From Arenimonas sp. (GTDB lineage Bacteria > Pseudomonadota > Gammaproteobacteria > Xanthomonadales > Xanthomonadaceae), in assembly GCF_022842045.1 (NCBI RefSeq), contig NZ_JALHQI010000003.1, positions 20,141 through 84,140 of the forward strand: DNA of 64,000 nucleotides, read 5' to 3'. Below the pieces are notes generated by a model. The model was not told the DNA's origin and ran no database searches. It saw only the letters and a list, made by a program, of their open reading frames with translations. Below, in pieces: positions 59,193 through 63,239 of this stretch. Numbering within the stretch: the stretch's first letter is position 1; every line of letters begins with the position of its first letter. Position numbers and translations under genes: made by a program.

Positions 59193-62100
59193 ATGACGCC
59201 CTCCGCGCCGCCCCTTCCCGCCTTCCCCGACCACGCCGCGCTCACGCGCGACCGTGGCCGTCTGCTGCGCCTGCTGGGGCAGTGGCGCAAGGCGCCGGAG
59301 GATGCCGCGCGCCGCGCCGCGTACGAGCAGGCGCTGGCCGCCTCCATCGCCGCGCGCGAACAGCGCGACGCACAGGCCCCGGCGCCGACCTTCGACGACA
59401 GCCTGCCGGTGGCGCGCGAGGCGGACGCGCTGGTGGCGCTGATCCGCAAGCATCCGGTAGTGGTCGTCGCCGGCGAAACCGGTTCGGGCAAGACCACCCA
59501 GCTGCCCAAGATCTGCCTGGCCGCGGGCCGCGGCCGCGCCGGCATGATCGGCTGCACCCAGCCGCGCCGGATCGCCGCGCGCGCGGTCGCGCGGCGCGTG
59601 GCCGAGGAGCTGCAGTCGCCGATGGGCGGCGCGGTCGGCTACCAGGTGCGCTTCACCGAGAACGTGGGCGACAACACCTACGTCAAGTTCATGACCGACG
59701 GCATCCTGCTGGCCGAGATCCAGTCCGACCGCTGGCTGTCGAAGTACGACACGATCATCGTCGACGAGGCGCACGAGCGCAGCCTCAACATCGACTTCCT
59801 GCTCGGCTACCTGAAGCAGCTGGTGCGCAAGCGGCCGGACCTGAAGCTGGTGATCACCTCGGCCACCATCGATACCGAGCGGTTCGCGAAGCATTTCGAC
59901 GGGGCGCCCGTGGTGAGCGTCGAGGGACGCAGTTTCCCGGTCGAGGTCCGCTACCGGCCCGGCGACGACGAAGGGATGGAAGAACGCGAAGGACCGGGTC
60001 AGGTTCCCTTTTCCGGCGGGATTGCGTCCAAGCCGCCGCGCCCGGGCCGGAAAAATGAACCTGACTCCGTTCTTCCCCGTGATCGCCCGTTGGCGGAGGC
60101 GATCGTTGCGGCGGCGGATGAGATTACCCGCGAGGACCCACAGGGCGACGTGCTGGTCTTCCTGCCCGGCGAACGCGAGATCCGCGACGCCCACGCGGCG
60201 CTGAACCGCCGCAAGTACCGCAGTACCGAAGTGATCCCGCTGTACGCGCGGCTGTCGGTGAAGGACCAGGACAAGGTCTTCAACCCGGGCCCGGGTCGCC
60301 GCATCGTGCTGGCCACCAACGTCGCCGAAACCTCGCTCACGGTGCCGCGCATCCGCTACGTGATCGATCCGGGCGTGGCGCGCGTGAAGCGCTACAGCCC
60401 GCGCGGCAAGCTCGACCGCCTGCACATCGAGCCCGTGAGCCAGGCCAGCGCCGACCAGCGCAAGGGCCGCTGCGGGCGCATCGCGGCCGGCGTCTGCTAC
60501 CGCCTCTATTCGCAGGACGACTTCGAAGGCCGCCCACGCTACACCGATCCCGAGATCCTGCGCGCCTCGCTGGCGGGCGTGATCCTGCGGATGCTGACGC
60601 TGGGCCTGGGCCGGGTCGAGGACTTCCCCTTCATCGATGCGCCCGATGCGCGCGCCATCGCCGATGGCTGGCAGACGCTGCTGGAGCTGGGCGCCGTGGA
60701 CGAACAGCGCCAGCTAACCGCCATCGGCCGCCAGATGGCGCGCCTGCCGGTGGACGTGAAGCTGGCGCGCATGCTGGTCGCGGCGCAGTCCCTCGGCTGC
60801 CTGGCCGACATGACGGTCATCACCTCCTTCCTCGGCATCCAGGATCCGCGCGAGCGCCCCGCCGATGCCCGCGAAAAGGCCGACAACGCCCACGCCGAGT
60901 TCGCCGACCCCAACTCCGAGTTCCTCGGCATCCTCAGGCTCTGGCAGGCCCACCACGCCGCCCACGAGGAGCTCACCCAGTCCAAGCTCCGCGACTGGTG
61001 CGAGCGCCGGTACCTGGCCTTCCTGCGCATGCGCGAATGGCGCGAGCTGCACCGCCAGCTGCTGTTGGCCTGCGAGGAGCTGTGGCCCGCGACGAACCAA
61101 ATGAACCAGGTTCATTTGCCTGCGAAGGGTTCGGCGCCGCGCCCGCCATCCCGCCGGGCAAATGAACCTGGTTCATTTGATTCGCTGTTGCATCGGGCTT
61201 TGATTGCGGGGTTGCCGACGCAGGTGGGGCATCGCAGCGAGAAGGGGCTTTACGACGCGCCGCGGCAGCGCAGGTTCTCGCTGTTCCCGGGGTCTTCGCT
61301 GAGCAAGCTGCCGCCCGCGTGGGTGCTGGTGGCAACGCTGCTCGATACGCAGAAGGTCTGGGGCATGACCGCGGCGCGCATCGAGCCCGACTGGGTGATC
61401 GCCGAGCTGCCGCACCTGCTGGCGCGCAAGCACTTCGACCCGCACTGGTCGCGGCGCCAGGGCCGGGTCATCGGCAGCGAGCAGGTGTCCCTCTTCGGCC
61501 TGGTGCTCGCGCCGAAGAAGCCCGTGCACTACGGCGGCCTGTACCCGGCCGAGTCGCGCGAGATCTTCGTGCGCCAGGGCCTGGTGCCGGGCGAGGTGGA
61601 CACCCGCAGCCCCTTCCTGAAGCGCAACCTCGCCACGCTGGAGAAGGCGCGCGAGGAAGAGGCCAAGCTGCGCCGCGCCGGCCTGGTCGCCGACGAGGAC
61701 TGGCAGGCGCGCTGGTACCTCGACCGCCTGCCGCCGGAGCTCAACTCGGTCGCCGGCCTCGACAGCTGGTACGGCAAGCTGCCGCCCGAACAGAAGAAAT
61801 CGCTGGAATGGTCGCTGGCCGACCTGCTGCCGGGCGAGGGCAGCGAGGCCGAACGCTTCCCGAAGTACTTCGCGCTGGGCGATGCACGGCTGGCGCTCCA
61901 CTACCGCTTCGAGCCCGGCCACGCCGAGGACGGCGTCACCCTCGACCTGCCGCTGCACCTGCTGATGGCGCTCGACCCGACGCGCCTGGGCTGGCTGGTG
62001 CCGGGACTGGTGGAGGAAAAGGCCACCGCGTTGATCCGCGGTTTGCCCAAGGCGCTGCGCCGCAACTACGTACCCGCGCCCGATTTCGCCCGCGCCTTCG

Positions 62101-63239
62101 CCGAGGCGCACCCGAAGCCGGAAGCCGACAGCCTTCCGGGCAGCCTCGCGCGCTTCCTCACCCGCGCCACCGGCGCACCCGTGACGGCGCTCGATTTCGA
62201 CGAGGCTGCGCTCGACGCCCACCTGCGCATGAACCTGCGGCTCGCCGAGCGCGACGGCCGCGTACTGGCCCAGTCGCGCGACCTGGCGCAGCTCCGCGCC
62301 CGCTTCGGCAGCGACGCCGAGCGCGCCTTCGCCGAGCGCGCCGGCGAAGACCTGGCCCGCGACGGCCTCACCGCCTTCCCCGACGCCCCGGTGCCGCGCG
62401 AAGTGCCCGGCGCCGCCGGCGTGCCGGCCTACCCGGCGCTGGTGGACCAGGGCGAGACGGTGGCCCTCAGCGTGTTCGCCGACCCGCAGGAGGCCGCGCG
62501 CGAACACGACGGGGGTGTCCGCCGCCTGGCCACGCTCGCCCTGGCCGACAAACTGCGCCAGGCCCGCAAGCAGCTGCCGGTGTCGCCCAAGCTCGCACTG
62601 CTTTACGCCGCCATCGAAGGCTTCACCCAGGCGCCGGGCCAGGCGCCCGCGCATGAACACCTGCGCACCGATCTCGCGCAGGCCGCGCTGAACGCCGTGC
62701 TCGAGGGCGACTTCGCCGGCGTGCGCGACGCCGATGCCTTCCGCCGCGTGCTGGACGCCGCCGGCAGGCGCCTGTTCGCCGAGGCCATGTCGCGCCTGCA
62801 GCTGGCTGAAGCCATCCTCGGCGGCGTCGCCGAAATCAAGCCCCGGCTGGAGTCGCCGCTGCTGGGCTGGGCCAGCGGCAACCTCGATGACCTGAAGGCG
62901 CAGCTGGCGGGCCTGGTGCCGCCGGGCTTCCTGCGCGACACGCCGGCCGGCCTGCTGGCGGAGTACCCGCGCTACCTCAAGGCCCTGTCGCTGCGCGCCG
63001 AGCGCGCCCTGCGCGACCCGCAGCGCGACCAGGCCCGCATGCTAGAACTCAAGCCCTTCCACGATGCGCTGCTGGCCGCGCGCCGCAGCGGCCGCGAGCG
63101 CGAGCCGGCCTGGCAGGCGCTGCGCTGGGACCTCGAGGAATTGCGGGTCTCGGTGTTCGCGCAGGAGCTCGGCACCAAGCGCCAGGTCTCCGCCAAGCGC
63201 CTCGCGCGCCAGCTGGAGGCCCTTACTCGACCCGCCTGA
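59193..63239 (+). CDS. hrpA: ATP-dependent RNA helicase HrpA
   Basis: VVVAGETGSGKTTQLPKI, DEAH, SATIDTERF, QRKGRCGRIAAGVCYRLYS; full-length DEAH/RHA plus DUF3418-like C-terminus. Confidence 0.97.
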   Translation: MTPSAPPLPAFPDHAALTRDRGRLLRLLGQWRKAPEDAARRAAYEQALAASIAAREQRDAQAPAPTFDDSLPVAREADALVALIRKHPVVVVAGETGSGKTTQLPKICLAAGRGRAGMIGCTQPRRIAARAVARRVAEELQSPMGGAVGYQVRFTENVGDNTYVKFMTDGILLAEIQSDRWLSKYDTIIVDEAHERSLNIDFLLGYLKQLVRKRPDLKLVITSATIDTERFAKHFDGAPVVSVEGRSFPVEVRYRPGDDEGMEEREGPGQVPFSGGIASKPPRPGRKNEPDSVLPRDRPLAEAIVAAADEITREDPQGDVLVFLPGEREIRDAHAALNRRKYRSTEVIPLYARLSVKDQDKVFNPGPGRRIVLATNVAETSLTVPRIRYVIDPGVARVKRYSPRGKLDRLHIEPVSQASADQRKGRCGRIAAGVCYRLYSQDDFEGRPRYTDPEILRASLAGVILRMLTLGLGRVEDFPFIDAPDARAIADGWQTLLELGAVDEQRQLTAIGRQMARLPVDVKLARMLVAAQSLGCLADMTVITSFLGIQDPRERPADAREKADNAHAEFADPNSEFLGILRLWQAHHAAHEELTQSKLRDWCERRYLAFLRMREWRELHRQLLLACEELWPATNQMNQVHLPAKGSAPRPPSRRANEPGSFDSLLHRALIAGLPTQVGHRSEKGLYDAPRQRRFSLFPGSSLSKLPPAWVLVATLLDTQKVWGMTAARIEPDWVIAELPHLLARKHFDPHWSRRQGRVIGSEQVSLFGLVLAPKKPVHYGGLYPAESREIFVRQGLVPGEVDTRSPFLKRNLATLEKAREEEAKLRRAGLVADEDWQARWYLDRLPPELNSVAGLDSWYGKLPPEQKKSLEWSLADLLPGEGSEAERFPKYFALGDARLALHYRFEPGHAEDGVTLDLPLHLLMALDPTRLGWLVPGLVEEKATALIRGLPKALRRNYVPAPDFARAFAEAHPKPEADSLPGSLARFLTRATGAPVTALDFDEAALDAHLRMNLRLAERDGRVLAQSRDLAQLRARFGSDAERAFAERAGEDLARDGLTAFPDAPVPREVPGAAGVPAYPALVDQGETVALSVFADPQEAAREHDGGVRRLATLALADKLRQARKQLPVSPKLALLYAAIEGFTQAPGQAPAHEHLRTDLAQAALNAVLEGDFAGVRDADAFRRVLDAAGRRLFAEAMSRLQLAEAILGGVAEIKPRLESPLLGWASGNLDDLKAQLAGLVPPGFLRDTPAGLLAEYPRYLKALSLRAERALRDPQRDQARMLELKPFHDALLAARRSGREREPAWQALRWDLEELRVSVFAQELGTKRQVSAKRLARQLEALTRPA
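59995..60068. repeat. Palindromic element A embedded in hrpA coding sequence
   Basis: cgggtcaggttcccttttccgg ... ccggaaaaatgaacctgactcc (18/22 arm identity). Confidence 0.85.
61098..61179. repeat. Palindromic element B embedded in hrpA coding sequence
   Basis: Perfect 23-bp IR caaatgaaccaggttcatttgcc ... ggcaaatgaacctggttcatttg. Confidence 0.93.

Follow-up and report, generated by a model that had tools for sequence, protein, structure and literature searches.

The hrpA gene of an Arenimonas species carries, in frame and within a linker of the encoded helicase, a doublet of palindromes that is well supported as a RAYT-associated REP doublet of a REPIN-like kind. HrpA is a ribosome-rescue helicase, and REPs are by definition extragenic. 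The account that we consider probable is that the doublet is a resident of a flexible linker, to which it would have come by RAYT-driven spread, where the protein would tolerate it and where its arms would have been repeatedly rewritten; more generally, such repeats seem to re-colonise or rewrite fixed sites inside working genes. To our knowledge, the mode by which RAYTs spread REPs has not been settled. Linkers that hold different palindromes in sister species amount to natural in-frame replicates, which could tell the insertion of REP arms from their overwriting and could show how a protein accommodates mobile DNA, and palindromes in these linkers complicate the annotation and alignment of HrpA.

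The window, meaning the whole stretch of 64,000 nucleotides that was analysed, holds the following features:

59193 to 63239, + strand: hrpA open reading frame, 1348 amino acids, with DEAD, Helicase_C, HA2, OB fold and DUF3418 domains (Pfam and PDB relatives)
59988 to 60075, + strand: second inverted repeat, in frame and decayed, located in the linker between RecA1 and RecA2 of hrpA, with arms at 59988-60017 and 60046-60075, of the GGGTCAGGTTC..GAACCTGAC class (inverted repeat score 15)
61093 to 61120, + strand: left arm of the doublet, including the 21-mer CAAATGAACCAGGTTCATTTG (61098-61118), which is dispersed genome-wide
61121 to 61156, + strand: inter-arm loop of 36 nt, encoding AKGSAPRPPSRR
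61157 to 61184, + strand: right arm of the doublet, including the 21-mer CAAATGAACCTGGTTCATTTG (61159-61179)

A preliminary description of this DNA had reported a perfect 23-bp inverted repeat with arms that were palindromic themselves, lying in frame in a continuous hrpA gene and in a linker of the protein, and all of these points held. Over 23 bp, the arms at 61098-61120 and 61157-61179 are exact inverted copies of each other; when extended to 61093-61120 and 61157-61184, they are complementary at 27 of 28 positions around the 36-nt loop, and each contains CAAATGAACC[A/T]GGTTCATTTG, a palindrome in its own right. The hrpA frame (59193-63239) reads through the doublet, which encodes NQMNQVHLPAKGSAPRPPSRRANEPGSF. 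The RNA fold of the doublet has an energy of -60.1 kcal/mol (z = -7.9), and its GC3 is 0.60-0.67 as opposed to 0.93-1.0 in the hrpA codons upstream. The palindrome core has two matches in the window versus 0.04 expected, even allowing three mismatches, and this excess, along with the 47 places found genome-wide as against none for a reversed control, argues that the doublet did not arise by chance.

The expected HrpA domains were found by Pfam on either side of the doublet, whose site, linker 2, follows HA2 and precedes the OB fold; this linker is shorter in the E. coli HrpA structures than here. Linker 1 (residues about 262-296, between the RecA domains) has almost no counterpart in those structures, and it holds the second, decayed repeat, with a score of 15 against a shuffle maximum of 9 and a fold z of -3.5. 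In an AlphaFold model of residues 1-800, the segments 259-296, 636-638 and 643-660 have a pLDDT below 50, and both elements lie in such low-confidence segments; as the mean pLDDT was 67, the contrast between segments alone was used. HrpA of E. coli and of several Arenimonas relatives has no such palindrome, and a search of plasmid DNA with hrpA gave one match, partial and distant.

The 21-mer CAAATGAACCWGGTTCATTTG is present, at up to three mismatches, at 47 places in this genome (G000, a draft of 126 contigs) and at 43 in that of the sister species A. metalli (G026). At up to one mismatch it occurs in G000 and G026 only, among 299 family genomes that are drafts and MAGs, and it was not found in 24 of the 27 genus genomes. 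Between-gene positions account for 42 of 48 matches, with five intragenic and one at an edge; by codon-score gene calls, which are approximate, the between-gene copies are bordered by 20 co-oriented, 16 convergent and six divergent gene pairs, and the density of the 21-mer along the genome is uneven. By raw count, this genome has about ten inverted doublets, with irregular inter-arm spacing, and in G021 inverted doublets make up the majority of the copies. A GTAG or GTGG head common to the copies was not seen in their 90-nt flanks, nor a CGTC tag at the unit ends, and the 21-mer itself is without GGGG.

These dispersed, mostly intergenic copies, together with a Y1/RAYT gene of the same genome (contig C30, 24557-24841) that is flanked on both sides by 21-mers in inverted orientation, identify the hrpA palindrome as a RAYT-associated REP doublet. 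For the element, the preliminary description had proposed a REP or MITE type whose movement depended on a Y1 (RAYT) transposase, and it had suggested counting copies throughout the genome and looking for the transposase gene; the 47 places and the flanked gene bear that proposal out. The C30 RAYT is a deletion pseudogene: relative to the RAYT of G011, some 50 residues that follow position 114 are missing from it. The intact RAYTs of G011 and G023 are flanked by the TGAACCWGGTTCA core, as in the 21-mer family. A second RAYT of this genome, on contig C25, lies between 30-nt GGGGTCAGGTTCSGAACCTGACCCC palindromes related to the decayed linker 1 repeat (59988-60075), and in G021, as in G022, the RAYT end repeat is identical to one of that genome's own HrpA arms. 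The GGGGWSAS motif is present in the repeats flanking the RAYTs of G000 (C25), G021, G022, G004 and G026, and in linker 1-type arms. Another Y1 transposase group is found at the RAYT loci L054, L197 and L196 (of G026, G016 and G020), with long GTAGGAG..CTTCAGG-type hairpins alongside that are unlike the HrpA repeats.

HrpA genes of the genus genomes and of named Xanthomonadaceae (92 tree tips) were then compared for inverted repeats with a score of at least 13. Such repeats occupy linker 1 in 14 of the 92 tips, linker 2 in 13 and either linker in 20, each with a score that none of 40 shuffles of the linker in question reached, and on a HrpA tree built without the linkers they require 11 (linker 1) and 10 (linker 2) Fitch changes. 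The comparison with sister species that the preliminary description had advised gave a divided answer, as several Arenimonas relatives have no such palindrome but the sister species G026 has a different one at the very spot of the doublet. Given this and the recurrence of the sites across species, the doublet was probably not newly inserted into a linker that had been empty before. Linker 2 elements outside the genus include those of Stenotrophomonas daejeonensis, Pseudoxanthomonas suwonensis and Thermomonas haemolytica, with decayed copies in relatives of P. suwonensis. Palindromes unrelated in sequence occur at L116, L129, L156 and L159, as well as in linker 2 of G005 and G017. Those in linker 1 of L129 and L156 and linker 2 of L116 are GGGATTGGAGAGTGGGGATT.. 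(Xanthomonas) and GAGGAACGAG.. (Pseudoxanthomonas yeongjuensis), and the different palindrome in linker 2 of L085 (G017) / L096 (G005) reads GCCATCGGGAAACT / GCCTTCGGAAAACT. A 12-nt loop in linker 2 has inverted orientation between G005 and G017, which fits recombination across a hairpin.

Other coding sites are occupied as well. A second in-frame doublet of the 21-mer family in this genome (L032:1730-1814, contig C94) lies in an IcmF-like fused B12-binding/MeaB/mutase gene, between its first two domains, B12-binding and MeaB, and the same IcmF linker has inverted repeats in G026, G021, G022, G010, G019, G023 and G012. G021 has composite GGGGTCAG-type palindromes within the frame of a gene for a DinG-like helicase (contig C14, L231:1493-1595). 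In hisH, a single 21-mer (L030:3631-3651, contig C58 of this genome) reads as QMNLVHL within a gap-free alignment to V. cholerae HisH, and it looks as though the 21-mer had taken the place of seven codons; a HisH orthologue was not seen among the loci retrieved.

The arms of these elements change together. In a set of 19 different arm pairs, each of 21 bp, both-side changes were seen in 15 of 21 pairs (58 cells), against 0 of 500 shuffles. Arm identity is 82% between loci of one genome versus 69% at one locus between species (permutation p = 3e-4, in a test not corrected for phylogeny), and vertical inheritance alone predicts the opposite order. At IcmF, a lysine-rich loop can be aligned across species while the arms come from different families, and even between the sisters G000 and G026 the loop was retained and the arm family switched. 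The HrpA loops, unlike that of IcmF, differ between species with no clear homology, and for this reason rewriting is best supported for IcmF only. In G026, the GTACCAGGTTCATTTTTCCGG family forms perfect doublets at hrpA linker 1, hrpA linker 2 and icmF alone. The pattern CAGGTWCAYTTTTCC..GGAAAARTGWACCTG has 13 places in the 27 genus genomes, 11 of them at hrpA or icmF sites, a ratio that is descriptive and not a test because the pattern was picked after the sequences had been seen; the other two places are a contig end beside an icmF site and one elsewhere in G021. As for the reading frame, the tabulated elements of the class of the hrpA doublet all show the ..EP(D/G).. phase, or its counterpart, in the right arm, and the left arm has one phase at the Arenimonas sites except in G017 and another phase in the outside cases. 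Stop codons alone do not fix the right-arm phase, since a second one is also open, and the constancy of frame could come from a shared origin within Arenimonas, from selection on the peptide, or from both.

In the explanation that we favour, copies would spread through a RAYT acting on single-stranded hairpins, and the flexibility of the linkers, together with a frame left open, would allow the protein to tolerate them. The arms of a resident doublet would be overwritten by the repeat family active in the host species, whether by REP-to-REP conversion or by renewed insertion into the REP, and arm-to-arm correction would keep the hairpin nearly perfect; a benefit to the host is not required. 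The dispersal of the repeats, RAYT flanking, recurring linkers, arm covariation, retention of the IcmF loop and the low-confidence AlphaFold segments count for this explanation; the cognate RAYT that is a pseudogene here, the irregular doublet spacing and the non-homologous HrpA loops count against it. An extension of it, which we put forward tentatively, is that certain fixed linkers between domains of housekeeping genes, two in hrpA and one in icmF, are long-lived homes of a partly separate, coding-adapted RAYT-type lineage, whose arms may be exchanged among these unlinked pads and rewritten in frame with the loop kept.

The non-homologous HrpA loops are also what would be expected if the element of each species were an independent RAYT-driven insertion of a whole doublet into linkers that simply tolerate or favour it, without any arms being rewritten. 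This alternative is plausible, if somewhat doubtful: the elements of S. daejeonensis, P. suwonensis, T. haemolytica and linker 2 of G023 do look lineage-specific, and the 11 and 10 Fitch changes at the two HrpA linkers suit it, but it does not account easily for an IcmF loop kept beneath a switched arm family, even in G000 versus G026, or for the same frame at all Arenimonas clade pads except that of G017. We think it unlikely that the elements are kept for a function, either as an mRNA hairpin that slows or regulates hrpA translation or as a peptide that tunes the linker. The hairpins are very stable (-60, -51 and -55 kcal/mol), their pairing is preserved as the sequence changes, the EP(D/G) phase of the right arm never varies, and a self-sensing hairpin is conceivable from E. 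coli (Campbell et al. 2025, as cited in PMC13159725). Against these points, elements are missing or decayed in many relatives, IcmF, a metabolic enzyme, has them too, the remainder of the protein is conserved whether or not its linkers hold an element, and repeat turnover with palindrome correction predicts the pairing anyway.

A regulatory reading, in which a transcription factor or nucleoid protein binds the 21-bp palindrome and the dispersal reflects regulation and not mobility, is very improbable. Its compact, nearly invariant and often single form and its uneven density along the genome would suit such a site; this reading was nonetheless set aside, as the copies sit away from promoters, at gene ends and between convergent genes, form inverted pairs and flank RAYT genes, and as the 21-mer is absent outside two or three species and replaced by other palindromes in close relatives. 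A chance inverted repeat or an assembly artefact can practically be dismissed: the genome is a draft of many contigs, but the number of copies, the link to RAYT genes, the shuffle controls and the fact that such repeats recur across numerous independent assemblies contradict it.

Nothing specific on REPs in hrpA, or on in-frame REPs in Arenimonas, was found in the open-access literature. Other lineages were already known to carry REPs in frame (PMC3733652), so the novelty lies in recurrence and concerted change; what looks new is that, across Arenimonas and some further Xanthomonadaceae, the same pair of HrpA linkers and one linker of IcmF are occupied by palindromes that differ. The earlier remark that such elements are little described therefore applies to the lineage, the repeat class and the pattern, but not to in-frame REPs elsewhere.

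Like the REPINs and BIMEs (PMC3116915, PMC2817692), the repeats described here are short palindromes in dozens of copies, mostly between genes, that flank a Y1 transposase gene and pair as inverted doublets able to fold to hairpins. They differ from them in having no GTAG/GTGG head, a unit that is a perfect palindrome, irregular doublet spacing and copies in frame in hrpA and icmF. By their repeats, they appear closest to the TIRtrons with a GGGGTCAG (GGGGWSAS) motif and not to the GTAG REPs. According to the available text of PMC3733652, TIRtrons (TIRYT) are RAYT genes between inverted repeats with GGGGTCAG, some of which are self-complementary and arranged as dimers, and they are known from Stenotrophomonas maltophilia, a member of the host's own family. 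The intragenic list in that text consists of GTAG and CGTC repeats, and the text describes neither in-frame doublets of the TIR type nor recurrence at fixed linkers; the 21-mer, in turn, lacks the GGGG of the TIRtron repeats. Palindromic elements of Rickettsia and intragenic GTAG/CGTC REPs lie in frame in conserved genes, again by the same text (PMC3733652), in which intragenic REP dimers encode 20-30 amino acids, their hosts include RNA helicases and repair genes, and the recB genes of two Xanthomonas species have an in-frame REP at about one shared site. The resemblance to Rickettsia-type elements that the preliminary description had drawn is thus apt for palindromes in coding genes, but it fails on the CGTC tag, which is missing, and on the RAYT association, which is present. 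The elements in HrpA and IcmF belong to another sequence class, one linked to RAYT genes, and in many species they occupy the same linkers with different palindromes, the arms of which change in concert.
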